Assembly: GCA_003989075.1 (NCBI GenBank)
Contig: RXIX01000020.1
Location: forward strand, 1 to 38,088
Direction of reading: 5' to 3'
DNA from: Candidatus Competibacteraceae bacterium
Lineage (GTDB): Bacteria > Pseudomonadota > Gammaproteobacteria > Competibacterales > Competibacteraceae
Length of the DNA: 38,088 nucleotides
Each line of letters begins with the position of its first letter. Positions within the stretch are counted from its first letter, which is position 1. Shown here piece by piece: positions 7,756-14,215 of the stretch. A model generated the notes under the pieces. It did no database searches, was not told the DNA's origin, and saw only the letters and a program-made list of their open reading frames with translations. The position numbers were made by a program, and so were the translations under genes.

Positions 7756-9040
7756 GACCTTCGCTCAGGCTGGCCGCGGGATTCTGCGCACGGTCTGCAG
7801 TGGGCGGATGCTCACCGCGCTGCTGATGGGGTTTTCCTCTGGCCTGCCGCTGCTGCTCGCGACCGGTTCGGTGCTGCAGGCCTGGCTGAAGGAAGCCGGG
7901 GTTGATCTGGGCACCATTGGCCTGTTCGCGCTGGTCGGCCTGCCCTACACGCTGAAATTTCTCTGGGCGCCGCTGCTGGATCGCTTCGCGCCCATTGGCG
8001 GCATGGGTCGGCGGCGCGGCTGGCTGCTGCTGATCCAGATTGCGCTGATCGCGGCCATCGCCGGGCTGGGTCTGGCCGATCCGCTCATCAGCCTGCCCGG
8101 CGTTACCGTAGCGGCATTCCTGGTCGCATTCTTTTCAGCCTCGCAGGATATCGTCATCGATGCCTATCGCCGCGAGTCGCTGAGCGATGCCGAGCAGGGC
8201 CTGGGCGCCTCGCTGTATGTCAACGGCTATCGGATCGGCCTGCTGCTCTCATCGGGTGGCGGGCTGATCCTGGCCGATTTCATCCCGTTCGCGGCGGTGT
8301 ACGCGGTGATGGCCCTGGCAATGCTGCCTGGACTGCTGACCACGCTGCTATGCGTCGAGCCACCGGTGGCTGTGGGCACGCCGCGCAGCCTGCGCGAGGC
8401 AGTCGTGCAACCCTTTGCCGAATACTTTTCCCGTCAGGATGCGCTGCTGATTCTGCTGTTCGTGCTGCTGTACAAGGTCGGCGAGATGATGTCCAGCCAG
8501 ATGACCACGCCGTTCTATCTGGATCTGGGCTTTAGCAAGACCGAAATCGGCACCGTGGTCAAACTGTTTGGCTTCTGGGCGACGGTGATTGGCGGGCTGC
8601 TCGGTGGTGTGCTGATGCTGCGCATGGGCCTGTACCGCGCCCTGTGGACCTTTGGCATTTTGCAGGCAATCGGCCTGATCGGCTTCGTGATCCTGGCCCG
8701 GCTTGGCCATAATCTGCCGGCGCTGGCGCTGGCAATCAGCAGCGAGAACCTGTTCAGCGGCATGGCCACTACGGCCTATGTCGCCTTCATGGCTACCCTG
8801 ACCAATCGCAAGTTCACCGCCACCCAATACGCCCTGCTCAGCAGCTTGATGGGCGTGCCCCGGGTGATCGTCAACACGCCGACCGGTTATCTGGCCGAAT
8901 GGCTGGGCTGGGAAGGATTCTTCCTGTTCTGCATGGCCGCCACCGTGCCGGGGCTGTGGCTGCTGACCCGCTTCCGGGCGTGGATGGAAAGCCCGACTGA
9001 AACCGCTGCTGAACCCCCCATCGAACCGGGCCGGGCCTGA
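7739..9040 (+). CDS. ampG: AmpG-family muropeptide permease (MFS)
   Basis: 433-residue inner-membrane transporter with about twelve hydrophobic helices. AmpG carries anhydro-muropeptides from periplasm to cytoplasm for peptidoglycan recycling and, in many Gammaproteobacteria, beta-lactamase induction. Family features are the start MLTALLMGFSSGLPLLL, GLPYTLKFLWAPLLDR, SASQDIVIDAYRRE and the second-half LDLGFSKTEIGTVVK. It is shorter than E. coli AmpG (about 490), which has extra C-terminal helices. Two start codons, ATG 7739 and ATG 7745, lie inside the end of xthA and suggest translational coupling; which is used is unclear. Nearby genes give no proof of substrate, so related AmpG-like permeases of other function remain possible. 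Confidence 0.85.
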   Translation: MTMSSKTFAQAGRGILRTVCSGRMLTALLMGFSSGLPLLLATGSVLQAWLKEAGVDLGTIGLFALVGLPYTLKFLWAPLLDRFAPIGGMGRRRGWLLLIQIALIAAIAGLGLADPLISLPGVTVAAFLVAFFSASQDIVIDAYRRESLSDAEQGLGASLYVNGYRIGLLLSSGGGLILADFIPFAAVYAVMALAMLPGLLTTLLCVEPPVAVGTPRSLREAVVQPFAEYFSRQDALLILLFVLLYKVGEMMSSQMTTPFYLDLGFSKTEIGTVVKLFGFWATVIGGLLGGVLMLRMGLYRALWTFGILQAIGLIGFVILARLGHNLPALALAISSENLFSGMATTAYVAFMATLTNRKFTATQYALLSSLMGVPRVIVNTPTGYLAEWLGWEGFFLFCMAATVPGLWLLTRFRAWMESPTETAAEPPIEPGRA

Positions 9041-9066
9041 GTGGAGTTTCTGGCAACGGCAGTGGC

Positions 9067-9101
9067 CTGTCATGTGATCATCACGCGTTTTTCATCATAA
9101 T
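9067..9101 (+). promoter_or_regulatory. PhoB-box-like promoter of the glycosyltransferase-PAP2 pair
   Basis: Heptamers CTGTCAT (9067-9073), TCATCAC (9078-9084) and TTTTCAT (9089-9095) recur at an exact 11-bp period, all ending TCAT or TCAC. The PhoB consensus is two CTGTCAT/C-like heptamers 11 bp apart, placed about 10-11 bp before a -10 box. Here CATAAT (9096-9101) follows the second heptamer after 11 nt, so the architecture fits. Matches outside the TCA core of the second and third repeats are weak. A PhoB motif search would settle it. Confidence 0.5.
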
Positions 9102-9128
9102 TTTGCATCCGCCGGCGATAGTGCCGGC

Positions 9129-10343
9129 ATGATCGCAATCCCTGCTGCCTCGAACTCTTCGCTACCCTACGCATCCGCCGGCCAGCGCTTGCGGATCAGC
9201 GTGGTCACCGAAACCTATCCGCCTGAAATCAACGGCGTGGCCATGACCATTGGCCAGATGGTTGATGGACTGCTGGCGCGCGGCCATGCGGTGCAGGTGG
9301 TGCGACCCCGCCAGCACGGTCGCGATGTGGCGCACAAGGCGGGTCGTCTGGACGTGGTGCCGCTGCCGGGCGTACCGCTGCCGTTTTATCCGCAACTGCG
9401 CCTGGGCCTGCCCGCCGGGCGGCACCTGTTGACACGCTGGCGGCAAACGCCGCCGGACATCGTGCACCTGGTCACCGAAGGACCGCTGAGCCGTTCGGCG
9501 CTGCACGTGGCCCGCCGGCTGGGCCTGCGGGTGTTCTCCGACTTCCACACCAACTTTCACGGCTATAGCCGCCACTACCGGGCCGGGCTGCTGGCACAAG
9601 CGATCATCGCCTATCTGCGCCGCTTCCATAACCGCGCCGACTGCACCCTGGTTCCGACCGGACAGCTTGCTGATGAACTGCGCACGCTGGGTTTTCAGCG
9701 GGTGCGCGTGCTGGGACGCGGCATCGACACTGCGCTGTTTACGCCACAACGCCGTGATCAGGCCCTGCGTCGGGCCTGGGGCGCCGGTGCGGATGATCCC
9801 GTGGTGCTATCGGTGGGGCGGCTGGCGGCGGAAAAGAACCTGCAACTGGTGCTGGATGCCTACGCCGCGCTGCGCCAGCACCGGCCAACGGCGCGGCTGG
9901 TGCTGGTTGGCGATGGGCCGCTGGCGGCGCGGCTGCGCACCCGGCATCCCGACATTCTCTTTGCCGGCATGCGCACCGGTGCCGATCTGGCCGCGCATTA
10001 CGCCTCCGCCGATCTGTTCCTGTTTCCGAGCCTGACCGAGACCTTTGGCAACGTCACGCTGGAAGCGATGGCCAGCGGGCTGGCGGTGGTGGCCTTCGAC
10101 TATGCCGCTGCCCGTCACCACATCCGTCACGGTCAGGACGGCTGGCTGGTGGACTGCGCTGACCCGGCCGGCTTCATTGCCGCTGCCCGCTATCTGGGCG
10201 AGCGCCCCGAGCTGATCCACGCCCTGGGACAGGCCGCCCGGCAGGCAGTCATGGCGTTTGACTGGGAGCGTATCCATGAGCAACTGGAACGCTGGTATCT
10301 GCAACCGGTCCGCGAGGAGATCGAACATGCATCGAGTGCTTGA
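9129..10343 (+). CDS. GT4-type glycosyltransferase (possible glycolipid synthase)
   Basis: 404-residue cytoplasmic GT-B glycosyltransferase. The N-terminal domain begins about residue 20 with LRISVVTETYPPEINGVAMTIG, where NGV is the glycine-rich acceptor/donor loop. FSDFHTNFHGYSRHY lies near residue 140. The C-terminal nucleotide-sugar domain has LSVGRLAAEKNLQLVLDAY, LVLVGDGPLAARL and the donor-binding E-x7-E segment SLTETFGNVTLEAMASGLAVV. This combination is typical of the family that includes bacterial diacylglycerol glucosyl/mannosyl transferases and SQD2-like enzymes. The next gene is a PAP2 phosphatase overlapping by 17 nt, and a PhoB-box-like promoter precedes. Together they suggest glycolipid production from diacylglycerol during phosphate shortage, which is inference. 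Donor and acceptor are unknown. Confidence 0.85.
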   Translation: MIAIPAASNSSLPYASAGQRLRISVVTETYPPEINGVAMTIGQMVDGLLARGHAVQVVRPRQHGRDVAHKAGRLDVVPLPGVPLPFYPQLRLGLPAGRHLLTRWRQTPPDIVHLVTEGPLSRSALHVARRLGLRVFSDFHTNFHGYSRHYRAGLLAQAIIAYLRRFHNRADCTLVPTGQLADELRTLGFQRVRVLGRGIDTALFTPQRRDQALRRAWGAGADDPVVLSVGRLAAEKNLQLVLDAYAALRQHRPTARLVLVGDGPLAARLRTRHPDILFAGMRTGADLAAHYASADLFLFPSLTETFGNVTLEAMASGLAVVAFDYAAARHHIRHGQDGWLVDCADPAGFIAAARYLGERPELIHALGQAARQAVMAFDWERIHEQLERWYLQPVREEIEHASSA

Positions 10344-10863
10344 AATCGCACCACTGCGGCGGCTGGCGGAACTCGATATCGTCTGGTGCCTGCACTTCAA
10401 TCGCGCCAGTCACCGGCGCGAGCTGGAGCGCCTGTTTGCGCTGGTCAGCCGGCTGGGCGATGGCGTGTTCTGGTACACGCTGATGCTGGCGCTGCTGCTG
10501 GTGCAGGGAACGGCGGCGCTGCCGGTGGTCGGGCGGATGCTGCTGGTCGGTGCGCTGTCCCTGATTCTGTATAAATGGCTCAAGGCCCGCACCACCCGGC
10601 CACGGCCCTGCGCCCGTCACGACCATATCCGCGCCTCAGTGGCCCCGCTGGATGAATACAGCTTCCCCTCTGGGCATACCCTGCATGCGGTATCGTTCAG
10701 CATCATCGCCGTGTACTACTATCCGGCGCTGGCCTGGCTGGTGCTGCCGTTCACCGTATTGGTGGCACTGTCGCGGCTGGTGCTCGGGCTGCATTATCCG
10801 AGCGATGTGCTGGCCGGTATTCTGCTGGGTGCAAGCTTGGCCAGCCTGACGCTGCACATCTAG
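10327..10863 (+). CDS. PAP2-family membrane phosphatase
   Basis: 178-residue membrane phosphatase with the complete three-part PAP2 signature: K-x6-RP (KWLKARTTRPRP, about residues 83-94), PSGH (SFPSGHTLHAVSF) and SR-x5-H-x3-D (SRLVLGLHYPSD near the C-terminus, containing the nucleophilic His). Four to five hydrophobic helices surround these. Members dephosphorylate phosphatidic acid, undecaprenyl pyrophosphate or other lipid phosphates. ATG 10327 lies within the end of the glycosyltransferase gene, so the two are translationally coupled. A phosphatidate phosphatase feeding diacylglycerol to the upstream transferase is the natural hypothesis, but a UppP-like role is not excluded. Confidence 0.88.
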   Translation: MHRVLEIAPLRRLAELDIVWCLHFNRASHRRELERLFALVSRLGDGVFWYTLMLALLLVQGTAALPVVGRMLLVGALSLILYKWLKARTTRPRPCARHDHIRASVAPLDEYSFPSGHTLHAVSFSIIAVYYYPALAWLVLPFTVLVALSRLVLGLHYPSDVLAGILLGASLASLTLHI

Positions 10864-10875
10864 GCCACACTGGCC

Positions 10876-10953
10876 GCTGGTTCGCTGGTTCGCTGGTTCG
10901 CTGGTTCGCTGGTTCGCTGGTTCGCTGGTTCGCTGGTTCGCTGGTTCGCTGGT
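10876..10953. repeat. 8-bp tandem repeat, about 9.75 copies
   Basis: Nine uninterrupted perfect copies of GCTGGTTC (10876-10947) plus GCTGGT. The array begins 13 nt after the PAP2 stop and lies outside any convincing gene. Perfect identity among copies implies recent slippage, so copy number probably varies between strains. Confidence 0.97.
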
Positions 10954-11233
10954 CGAAGTCGCCAGCAGTCTGCTATCGGCGCTATGATGTATCCTCTTTC
11001 AGACCCCGACTCCAGATCGTGGCGATATCGAGGTACGCAGACATGGCGCCCACCCCCCCTTCTCCGATATATCCCAAGACAGTCTCGACATCGTCTCCAC
11101 GCAAGCAGATGTGGGCAGCGACCGCCTACGGTTTGGCCATCGGTTTATCGAAATCGATAGCGCCATGATCCGCGCGATCCTTTCTGCAGCCTGGACCTCG
11201 CCCAGCGCGAGGTAGCATAAGGACGTTTGCGTC
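10954..11233. other. Leader region of the c-di-GMP gene; no clear gene
   Basis: With the tandem repeat this forms a 370-nt gap. Only short frames occur, for example ATG 10984 (about 58 codons) and ATG 11043 (about 42 codons). Another plus-strand frame without a good start (10988 to about 11215) contains a fairly protein-like run including SDISQDSLDIVSTQADVG. None has a recognisable family or a good ribosome-binding site. It may be a long 5' leader or a decayed gene. Confidence 0.4.
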
Positions 11234-14215
11234 ATGCTCGGCAAGGTACTGGCAATTGATGATGATCAGGGCGTGCTCGATACCTATCGCAGCATCCTGC
11301 ACACACAAGTCTACGAGAGCGATGCGCTGCTGGCGCTGGCCGGGCTGAACACCCCTAGCCGCGGCGAAGGCTTTGAACTGGCTACCGCCCAGCAGGGCCA
11401 GATCGGGCTGGCACTGGCCGAGGCGGCACTGGCCGAGGCGGCGCCATTCGATGTGGTATTCCTCGACATGCGCATGCCGCCGGGTTGGGATGGCCTGGAG
11501 ACTGCGCGCCGCCTGCGCCAATTCGACTACGGCATTTACGTGGTCATCGTCACCGCCTTTACCGATTGCAGGGTAGACGAGATTCAGGACACCCTCGGCC
11601 ACCACACGGTGCTGCTGCGCAAGCCCTTCACCCGTGATGAAATTTTCCAGATGGCGCGCACCCTGTGCCAGGCGCGGCGCACCGATCGCGAATTGGCTGC
11701 GATCAATCTCGAGCTGGAACAGCGGGTTGCACAGCGCACCCAGGCCCTGATGGAAAGCAGCGAGCGGCTGCGTTTCCTGTTCGAGCGTACCGGCACCGCC
11801 ATGCTGACCCTGGAGGCCGACGGGCTGGTTTCCATGGCCAATACCCGCGCCGTGGACATGTTTGGCCTGGAACGCACTTCCATCGAAGGTCAGCCATTCT
11901 GGCAACTGGTAGGTGCCGCCCACCAGAGTCCGCTGCAGGATGCCGCCTGGCTGGAGAACCCGGAGAACGATTTTTTCGGCCGGGAATGCGAACTGCCGTT
12001 CACCCGCCAGGATGGCACGGTGATCTGGGGCCTGCTCGACATCAACCCGATCCGGGAAACCGGCCAGACCCTGATCTCGCTGATCGACATCAGCGCCCGC
12101 AAGTGCGCCGAAACCGCACTGATCGAGAGCGAGGCGCGGGCGCGGCTGCTGCTCAACTCCGCCGGTGAGGGCATTTTCGGCCTCGACCCCGACGGCTATT
12201 GCATCTTCTGCAATCCGACGGCGTTGACCCTGCTCGGTCTTGAATCAGCCGAAGCTGTGCTCGGCCAGCACCTGCACACCCTGATTCACCAGAACGGGAA
12301 TCCCCCGGCGTGGCTGGACTGCCCGATGCATCAGGTGCTGGCCAGCGGCCAGCCGGTACAGGTTGAGCATGATCTGTTCTGGCGCGTGGACAATCGCCAG
12401 CCGTTTTCGGTCGAGTACCGCGCCCATCCGATGCTGCGCGATGGCCGGGTGCTCGGCGTGGTGGTGAATTTCAATGACACCACTGCGCAGCGCCAGGCGG
12501 CGGAAAAACTGCGCCAGGCCGCTGTCGTGTTCGAGAGCAGCCGCGAAGGCATCATCATCAGCGACGCGCATAACCGCATCCTGGCCGTCAATCAGGCCTT
12601 TCAGAGCATCACCGGCTATGGCGAAGCGGAGGTGCTCGGCCAGAATCCAAGCCTGCTTAAATCCGGCCGCCACGATACCGTCTTCTATCGCACCATGTGG
12701 AACGCAATCATCGAGCGCGGTGGCTGGTCGGGAGAAATCTGGAATCGGCGCCGCAGCGGTGAAATCTTCCCGGAATGGCTGAGCATCAGCGTCATCCGCG
12801 ACGATAGCGGCCAGATTAGCCAGTTCGTGGCCGTGTTCTCCGATATCACCCAGCTCAAGCAATCGGAAGCCAAGCTGCATCACCTTGCTCATCACGACCC
12901 GCTCACCGGCCTGCCTAACCGCCTGCTGCTTGCCGACCGGCTCGGGCAGGCCATTCACCGCGCCGCCCGTCAGTGCAGCCGCTTTGCCCTGCTGTTTCTC
13001 GATCTCGACCGCTTTAAGCAGATCAACGATACCCTCGGCCATGGCGTCGGCGATCTGCTCCTGCAGGACGTAGCGCTGCGCCTGCGCCACCTCCTGCGCC
13101 AGCAGGACACCATTGCCCGCCTCGGCGGCGACGAATTCACCATCCTGATTGAAGACCTCGACGATGATCAGGATGCCGGCACCCTGGCCAACAAGATCCT
13201 ATTGGCGCTGCACGAACCGTTCCTCCTCACCGGCCAGAGCCTGTTTATTGGCGCCAGTATTGGTATCAGCCTCTATCCGCGCGATGGCACCACCAGCGAA
13301 CTGCTGTTGCAGAACGCCGATACCGCCATGTACCGGGCTAAGAACAATGGCCGTGGCACCTACCAGTTCTACGATCCGGAAATGACCGCGCGGGTACTGG
13401 AGCGGATGACGCTGGACGGTGAATTGCGCCGCGCCCTGGACGCTGGACAATTCCTATTGCATTACCAGCCACAGCTCGATCTGGCCAGCGGGACAATTGT
13501 CGGCTTCGAAGCGCTGCTGCGCTGGCAGCATCCGCAGCGCGGACTGCTGCTGCCGGCTGCATTCCTCGAAGTCGCCGAGGAAACCGGCCTGATGGTACCG
13601 ATCGGCCAGTGGGCGCTGCATCAGGCCTGTCGGCAACGCCAGGCTTGGCGCGCGGCCGGCCTGGACGCTGGAACGATCGCCGTCAATCTGTCGGCAGCAC
13701 AGATCCAGCGCGGCAATCTGGTGACCACTCTGCGCCAGGTTTTGCTGGAAAGCGGCCTGCCGGGCAGCTATCTGGCTCTGGAAGTATCGGAGCATCTGCT
13801 GATCAGCGAGGCCGAGCACCTGGCCGAGTTGCTGCGCGTCACCCGCGAACTCGGCATCAATCTGGTGATTGGCAATTTTGGCCTTGGCCCGTCCTCGCTG
13901 AGCCATCTGCAGCGCCTGCCGATTCATCAGATCAAGCTGGATCGCAGTTTCGTCAATGCCCTGCCCGACAGTGAAAACGAGGCGGCTATCGCGCGCGCCA
14001 TCATCGCCCTTGGCCACAGCCTGCGCTATCAGGTGATCGCCGAGGGTGTGGAAACGCCGGCGCAGAGTGATTTCCTCAGTGCGGCCGGCTGTGACCGGGT
14101 GCAGGGCTTCCACTACGGCCAGCCCCTGACCGCCATGCAGGTCGAACAGTGGCTGCTGCAACAGGCTGGGCGGCGTCCTGCCGGGCAGTCGTCCAACGAC
14201 CCAACGCATCTCTAG
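11234..14215 (+). CDS. Receiver-PAS-PAS-PAS-GGDEF-EAL c-di-GMP protein, EAL site degenerate
   Basis: 993-residue cytoplasmic signalling protein. Domain order: receiver (about 1-150, phospho-acceptor Asp in VVFLDMRMPPGWDG, conserved Lys in LLRKPF), coiled coil (about 150-180), three PAS domains (about 180-290, 300-420, 425-545), GGDEF (about 550-715) and EAL (about 725-975). The cyclase half looks active: RLGGDEF is intact, and RQQD stands at the inhibitory I-site position before it. In the EAL half, EAL itself, NLSAAQ, EVSE, IKLDRSFV, AEGVET and the QGF motif are kept. However, the loop that is normally DDFGTG reads GNFGLG (Gly880, Asn881), removing two metal-binding Asp. It is therefore probably a phospho-regulated diguanylate cyclase with a non-catalytic EAL. 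A 15-bp tandem duplication (11414-11443) gives LAEAA twice in the receiver. Confidence 0.92.
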   Translation: MLGKVLAIDDDQGVLDTYRSILHTQVYESDALLALAGLNTPSRGEGFELATAQQGQIGLALAEAALAEAAPFDVVFLDMRMPPGWDGLETARRLRQFDYGIYVVIVTAFTDCRVDEIQDTLGHHTVLLRKPFTRDEIFQMARTLCQARRTDRELAAINLELEQRVAQRTQALMESSERLRFLFERTGTAMLTLEADGLVSMANTRAVDMFGLERTSIEGQPFWQLVGAAHQSPLQDAAWLENPENDFFGRECELPFTRQDGTVIWGLLDINPIRETGQTLISLIDISARKCAETALIESEARARLLLNSAGEGIFGLDPDGYCIFCNPTALTLLGLESAEAVLGQHLHTLIHQNGNPPAWLDCPMHQVLASGQPVQVEHDLFWRVDNRQPFSVEYRAHPMLRDGRVLGVVVNFNDTTAQRQAAEKLRQAAVVFESSREGIIISDAHNRILAVNQAFQSITGYGEAEVLGQNPSLLKSGRHDTVFYRTMWNAIIERGGWSGEIWNRRRSGEIFPEWLSISVIRDDSGQISQFVAVFSDITQLKQSEAKLHHLAHHDPLTGLPNRLLLADRLGQAIHRAARQCSRFALLFLDLDRFKQINDTLGHGVGDLLLQDVALRLRHLLRQQDTIARLGGDEFTILIEDLDDDQDAGTLANKILLALHEPFLLTGQSLFIGASIGISLYPRDGTTSELLLQNADTAMYRAKNNGRGTYQFYDPEMTARVLERMTLDGELRRALDAGQFLLHYQPQLDLASGTIVGFEALLRWQHPQRGLLLPAAFLEVAEETGLMVPIGQWALHQACRQRQAWRAAGLDAGTIAVNLSAAQIQRGNLVTTLRQVLLESGLPGSYLALEVSEHLLISEAEHLAELLRVTRELGINLVIGNFGLGPSSLSHLQRLPIHQIKLDRSFVNALPDSENEAAIARAIIALGHSLRYQVIAEGVETPAQSDFLSAAGCDRVQGFHYGQPLTAMQVEQWLLQQAGRRPAGQSSNDPTHL

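Follow-up and report, generated by a model that had tools for sequence, protein, structure and literature searches.

Does a glycosyltransferase gene that overlaps a phosphatase gene in a Competibacteraceae genome form a phosphate-controlled unit for lipid remodelling? The pair lies in a 38-kb stretch of DNA (38,088 nucleotides, hereafter the window) that constitutes contig 20 of G000, a genome of 3.4 Mb in 278 contigs from a Candidatus Competibacteraceae bacterium. It consists of a gene for a GT4 glycosyltransferase (GT; positions 9129-10343, + strand, 404 amino acids), a probable Agt-like glycosyl-diacylglycerol synthase, and a gene for a PAP2 phosphatase (10327-10863, + strand, 178 amino acids). 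Both genes had been proposed in an initial annotation and were found at those places as open reading frames with Pfam matches: the ATG of the PAP2 frame, at 10327, lies 17 nucleotides ahead of the end of the GT frame, which makes a 17-nucleotide overlap, and is preceded by a GAGGAG motif. It is very probable, judging from the sequences, that this operon is under Pho control, and we lean towards reading it as a Pho-regulon unit that would make glycosyl-diacylglycerol, with PAP2 in the place of the metallophosphoesterase PlcP.

A conserved Pho box array ahead of the glycosyltransferase gene

The GT gene is preceded, on the + strand, by an array of short direct repeats with an 11-bp period. Heptamers 1 (CTGTCAT, 9067-9073), 2 (TCATCAC, 9078-9084) and 3 (TTTTCAT, 9089-9095) are recognisable both by sequence and by the matrix described below, the first also as the conserved start of the array, and a degenerate fourth unit, ATTTTGC (9100-9106), keeps the same period. 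Most orthologues have an xTxTTGC-like unit at this place, which reads ATTTTGC in the window and xTGTTGC in the other large clade. A PhoB site has been described as a pair of direct repeats of 11 bp (PMC3978041) and PhoB sites overlap the -35 region (PMC3348028); the array occupies the -35 place, with 10 nucleotides between unit 4 and the hexamer GATAGT. The three heptamers, starting at 9067, 9078 and 9089, are those that the initial annotation had recognised as part of a PhoB-activated promoter; their number did not stand, since the fourth unit had been missed.

Two results count against Pho control. The plain pattern CTGTCAYNNNNYTGTCAY, allowed 2 mismatches, had 59 matches in G000 and its reversed control 58, which is background, and 13 of 70 promoters from outside the family do not favour a period of 11. 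The plain pattern was therefore not used as evidence by itself and the proof is carried by conservation, for which a heptamer matrix was built from the upstream regions of the family's phoB (30) and pstS (13) genes with no GT promoter included; a site that kept 10 or more of the 14 consensus letters was found in 37 of these 43 regions, and some of those from pstS may be spurious. Scored with this PhoB matrix, the window trio reaches 25.4 and outranks every other three-unit place on both strands of the window (next, 16.0), a match to the phoB and pstS sites that none of 2000 dinucleotide shuffles of the GT upstream region attained (P = 0.0025 for two boxes). Among the loci scanned in the genome itself, the places scoring at least 25.3 were those of PhoX, phoB and the window site, and a scan of relatives' loci (606,268 positions) gave 10 places scoring at least 22, of which 8 sit directly before GT genes.

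The same box stands in front of the orthologues. The family set held 39 genomes, 30 of them with a GT orthologue (E below 1e-100), and 28 of these loci had usable promoters (L035, whose contig starts inside the gene, and L016, with a short upstream region and no usable ATG, were omitted). A period of 11 beats 8, 9, 10, 12, 13 and 14 in all 28, with three units and with four; the mean three-box score is 21.3 as against 2.5 for shuffled sequence, and every promoter lies above 95% of its own shuffles. Setting aside 9 loci judged to be Competibacteraceae and 1 with too short an upstream region left 70 outside promoters from 80 named loci: here a period of 11 is best among 8-14 in 57, where random windows show no preference, while 59 exceed 95% of their own shuffles and 57 exceed the random-window 95% level. 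The promoter sequences are related and these counts are not independent trials, yet the GTs go down to about 50% identity and the 4-nucleotide spacers vary. The period test is also able to say no: an MgtA-like GT4 paralogue (35%), which in some genomes lies near PlcP, was considered as a second Pho gene and rejected, the three copies examined all having no array.

The genome has the regulator and other genes with such boxes. It encodes PhoB (G000:C161:1769-2443; 365.1 bits, cut-off 296.2), whose own gene is preceded by a two-unit box. Its phoX (PF05787) has four units, with 11 as the best period and a score of 28.6 for three of them, and arrays before olsB and btaA score 20.9 and 20.3, period 11 being best in each. 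Its plcP was rejected as a clear Pho gene: the best three-box score is 8.9, and a period of 14 scored higher. The site kept before orthologues, a PhoB with its own box and the boxes of PhoX, OlsB and BtaA together support the phosphate-controlled pair that had been proposed.

The PAP2 partner and the source of diacylglycerol

In the PlcP-Agt pathway, which is controlled through Pho boxes, Agt glycosylates the diacylglycerol that PlcP yields (PMC4796936, PMC8528852). For the pair in the window we propose a related scheme. On phosphate shortage PhoB would bind the four-unit array, presumably as two tandem dimers, and recruit RNA polymerase to the -10 hexamer GATAGT; the transcript would start at the ATG or within one base of it, with the GT translated from a leaderless messenger RNA (mRNA) and PAP2 from its own Shine-Dalgarno-like site within the GT gene. 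The GT4 enzyme would add a sugar to diacylglycerol and so form a phosphorus-free glycolipid, and PAP2 would dephosphorylate phosphatidate or a related lipid phosphate to diacylglycerol and freed phosphate, in PlcP's role. The PhoB binding, the start site, the acceptor, the donor sugar and the PAP2 substrate are each steps that we infer.

The PAP2 protein (Pfam PAP2, 87.0 bits) has its KX6RP, PSGH and SRX5HX3D motifs intact, as do 43 of 44 PAP2 proteins, the exception being a broken sequence (alignment A2 holds 32 of the 44; L172, whose PAP2 reading is broken, was left out). Its structure model, with a predicted local distance difference test (pLDDT) score of 93.1, shows a helical PAP2 fold for which Aquifex LpxE is the best match (Z 20.9, root-mean-square deviation (rmsd) 1.9, 160 aligned) and to which B. 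subtilis PgpB is also close (Z 18.4, rmsd 2.3, 162 aligned). The fold and all three catalytic motifs are thus common to the LpxE and PgpB families and the window protein, but its identity to these two enzymes is 23-26% and it falls far below the curated LpxE and PgpB cut-offs; in NCBIfam the LpxE model gives 22.8 of the 177 required and the SepP model 59.2 of 250. Intact motifs and an LpxE/PgpB-like fold indicate a lipid-phosphate phosphatase, and the natural reading of the model is a phosphatase of phosphatidate or a related lipid phosphate, with LpxE-like or carrier-lipid substrates fitting the fold equally well.

In the 80 named loci the gene next to the GT is PAP2 in 41, PlcP in 5 and OlsB in 1, and at two of them, L213 and L217, the order is GT-PlcP-PAP2. 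A quick tree of 85 GTs groups loci with like partners together, yet it requires at least 15 changes of partner and has PlcP partners at three places; the same GT lineage thus operates beside PlcP or PAP2, or with neither adjoining. Relatives have an OlsB-like acyltransferase directly 3' of the pair (about 170 bits to OlsB models, whose cut-offs are 320-350), and btaA (DUF3419), a btaB-like methyltransferase, a plcP-like metallophosphoesterase, phoX or a pst operon lie close to it.

The phosphorus-free lipid genes also follow the GT across the family: genomes with and without it have PlcP in 28/30 and 1/9, OlsB in 29/30 and 2/9, BtaA in 26/30 and 1/9, and PhoB in 29/30 and 5/9, respectively, a co-occurrence that is explained in part by poor genome completeness. 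For the 25 good genomes the corresponding figures are 21/22 and 1/3 for PlcP, 22/22 and 1/3 for OlsB, 21/22 and 1/3 for BtaA, and 21/22 and 2/3 for PhoB.

The genome's own PlcP homologue is encoded at G000:C5:54582-55334, on a contig other than that of the window. This contig, C5, which also carries btaA, shares about 40 kb at 99.9% identity with one end of a long contig in another genome, G026, of a different genus; the match joins G000:C5:26283-67245 and G026:C1:826000-865998 and may stem from a chimeric contig end, from contamination or from recent transfer. The phoB genes of the two genomes are only 78% identical. The PlcP on C5 is 73-77% identical to PlcP of G025, G013, G006 and G008, which also hold the GTs nearest to the window's in sequence and promoter type, and 70% identical to the other copy in G026; the GC content is 0.61-0.64 in C5, 0.62 in the window and 0.55-0.61 in other sampled pieces of G026. 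Because this kinship and the GC content fit, C5 most likely belongs to G000 and the end of the G026 contig is probably the odd one.

Several points weigh against the proposed scheme. The nearest solved relative of PAP2 by sequence is LpxE (59.3 bits). With a PlcP homologue elsewhere in the genome, PAP2 need not supply diacylglycerol. PAP2 active sites face the periplasm and GT4 enzymes act on the cytoplasmic side. Neither PAP2, PlcP nor OlsB adjoins the GT in 33 of the 80 named loci. The GT itself scores far under the cut-offs of named glycolipid synthases (MGlcDAGSynMgs, 102.9 of 400; GlcN_PG_synth, 142.5 of 480), and its likeness to Agt is one of Pho box and gene context.

Some of these points favour the alternative that survives best, in which the GT is a Pho-controlled glycolipid enzyme but PAP2 salvages phosphate from another envelope lipid, such as lipid A 1-phosphate, undecaprenyl diphosphate or phosphatidylglycerophosphate, while diacylglycerol comes from PlcP elsewhere. 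It would accord with LpxE being nearest in fold as well as in sequence, with the PlcP encoded on C5 and with the two loci that carry GT, PlcP and PAP2 together. The LpxE and SepP scores below their cut-offs, the lack of a convincing Pho array at the genome's own plcP and the predominance of PAP2 over PlcP as the GT's partner (41 to 5 of 80) speak against it, and we hold it to be possible and somewhat doubtful. For PAP2 as the source of diacylglycerol, taken by itself, the case read from the sequences appears evenly balanced.

The candidate -10 hexamer and the start of translation

Of the 28 family promoters, numbered from an in-frame ATG chosen consistently, 27 have an array that starts at -62 or -63, the exception being L037 with -64. 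The candidate -10 hexamer GATAGT (9117-9122, + strand) lies 10 nucleotides past unit 4 and 6 nucleotides ahead of the ATG, and the same layout recurs in 27 of the 28: unit 4, then 10 or 11 nucleotides, then an xAxxxT hexamer that ends 6-7 nucleotides before the ATG. At most other distances xAxxxT occurs in 0-2 of the 28, the exceptions (9, 11 and 5 of 28) being near the place of a second hexamer, CATAAT. A Shine-Dalgarno-like motif, as defined by a simple rule, precedes the GT in 0 of 28 family promoters, whereas the same rule finds one before phoB in 27/30 and before PAP2 in 19/31. A conserved -10 hexamer close to the ATG together with the missing Shine-Dalgarno motif is what one expects of a leaderless mRNA, and that of the GT is probably leaderless; the conserved promoter would then probably be a regulated promoter that needs no ribosome-binding site.

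The -10 candidate of the window is enclosed in a perfect inverted repeat, GCCGGC-gatagt-GCCGGC (9111-9128, without strand; arms at 9111-9116 and 9123-9128). The repeat, which like GATAGT had been missed in the initial annotation, is not universal: besides the window, several relatives (L012, L017, L020, L030, L033 and others) have it around the -10, and elsewhere it is weak or absent. Its arms differ yet remain complementary in several orthologues, with GTCAT/ATGAC in L012 and TGGC/GCCA in L017. As a conserved structure around the -10 it was rejected, the paired fraction being 0.583 at the centre -9.5 and 0.571 at another centre.

The initial annotation had taken CATAAT (9096-9101, + strand) for the -10 box. 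That hexamer is present, 11 nucleotides after heptamer 2, but the best conserved -10 is GATAGT. If CATAAT were the -10, or a second one, a leader of about 21 nucleotides could fold into a GCCGGC hairpin before the AUG. Its nearness to the -10 consensus, its spacing from heptamer 2, the xAxxxT that 8 of the 10 promoters in the window's clade have there and the repeat arms that vary among some orthologues and still pair all fit such an arrangement, which is nevertheless unlikely: of the 28 family promoters 12 have this hexamer and 27 the proximal one, no promoter has a Shine-Dalgarno motif, and the repeat, which several promoters lack or have only in weak form, hardly exceeds the other centre. 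A second start at this place, given its occurrence in the family and above all in the window's clade, may exist. A promoter scan of 9030-11260 gave no sigma-70 site at the GT, which is expected because the promoter is of the activated type; a terminator scan of the same interval found none, and an Rfam scan of the window had no match.

The glycosyltransferase, its setting and known pathways

The GT matches Pfam Glyco_transf_4 (100.2 bits) and Glyco_trans_1_4 (118.4 bits). No NCBIfam name could be adopted, all of the best 25 of 39 matches, spread over many GT4 subfamilies, being below cut-off, and the sequence matches in the PDB were to general GT4 enzymes only (PimA, BshA, MshA and others). 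The product is nonetheless likely, given the gene's sequence and context, to be a glycolipid. The enzyme might instead serve a phosphate-starvation change of the envelope with an acceptor other than diacylglycerol, such as ceramide, the lipid A core or an undecaprenyl carrier. The GT4 family is broad, the window protein's NCBIfam scores among the matches listed point to no single subfamily, and Pho-regulated GT4 enzymes of Caulobacter crescentus act on ceramide (PMC6445935); PlcP, however, adjoins the orthologues in 5 of 80 loci, and btaA-btaB-plcP and olsB nearby form the setting of Agt (PMC4796936), which makes another acceptor quite improbable. Most improbable of all is that the array arose by chance or serves a different regulator: the plain two-box pattern does lie at genome background, but period, position and matrix match are kept from genus to genus and from class to class, and phoB, phoX, olsB and btaA are preceded by the same element.

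Around the pair, exonuclease III and an AmpG-like transporter are encoded 5' of the GT on the same strand, and a response-regulator GGDEF-EAL protein is encoded 3' of PAP2. The order pyrE-like, xth, ampG, GT, PAP2, whose first gene we take to be pyrE-like, is also found in G008 and G016. Right after the PAP2 stop, at 10875-10953, lies a perfect octamer tandem array, CGCTGGTT, of 9.9 copies. Some relatives differ in what follows the GT or the pair. L140 (14953-17040, from G001) has the GT with its array and no PAP2, the next gene encoding a 202-amino-acid protein with no Pfam or NCBIfam match. In G022 and G023, of one genus, an Orn/Lys/Arg decarboxylase gene, called by Pfam in L137 (2073-4487) and by likeness in L150 (10170-12698), lies directly 3' of the pair on the same strand. 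In L174, a metagenome-assembled genome of Hydrogenophaga, the gene after a GT without PAP2 looks by eye like a PhoX-type alkaline phosphatase. Two loci from public metagenome-assembled genome records named as a Synechococcaceae cyanobacterium (L154, JAAUTD010000016.1) and a Phycisphaerales bacterium (L156, JACSSB010000397.1) have GTs that match Competibacteraceae genomes.

The PlcP-Agt systems of Sinorhizobium, Phaeobacter, SAR11 and Pseudomonas aeruginosa (PA3219-PA3218, PA0842) likewise have Pho boxes before the GT and a partner that yields diacylglycerol, and phosphorus-free lipid genes such as btaA-btaB lie near plcP, as here (PMC4796936, PMC8528852). Unlike in those systems, the partner here is PAP2, with PlcP encoded elsewhere in the genome, and the transcript, from a four-unit promoter, is probably leaderless. 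Diacylglycerol may also come from dephosphorylation of phosphatidate, as suggested for cyanobacteria, where phosphatidate, in place of PlcP action, would supply the diacylglycerol of phosphorus-free lipids; that suggestion, in the available part of the paper, comes with no mention of a Pho-controlled operon (PMC4796936), whereas the window holds a proteobacterial GT-PAP2 operon with Pho boxes. Under phosphate limitation Desulfovibrio alaskensis G20 forms phosphorus-free membranes of glycolipid and ornithine lipid, and mutants in its Agt homologue and ornithine-lipid synthase have fitness defects (PMC5193443). It belongs to another organism group, the available part of that paper mentions no PAP2 partner, and its ornithine-lipid enzyme is OlsF, whereas those here are OlsB-like.

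Among the papers listed in searches of mostly open literature, we found none on a GT-PAP2 phosphate-starvation operon or on Competibacter lipids, and none that looked relevant by title and abstract on a leaderless PhoB or Pho-box promoter. New relative to that literature are PAP2 as the partner and a four-unit promoter whose mRNA is probably leaderless. Pho-controlled glycolipid synthesis is already known, so no new principle is involved, and the locus looks like a variant form of the PlcP-Agt pathway.

A wider reading, which we offer tentatively, is that a PAP2-Agt route runs parallel to PlcP-Agt in Beta- and Gammaproteobacteria. In it a Pho-controlled phosphatase would make diacylglycerol from phosphatidate for a dedicated synthase, under a four-unit array and from a leaderless mRNA; PAP2 and PlcP would have been swapped several times beside the same GT; and the glycogen-accumulating Competibacteraceae of wastewater would keep a Pho-controlled kit for glycolipid, ornithine lipid and betaine lipid. 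Bacteria that replace their phospholipids have mostly been recognised by plcP, both in genomes and in the environment, and if PAP2 does PlcP's work, surveys of plcP undercount the phosphorus-free lipid trait. For the Competibacteraceae themselves, the locus suggests how glycogen-accumulating competitors of phosphate-removing wastewater bacteria could save phosphorus.

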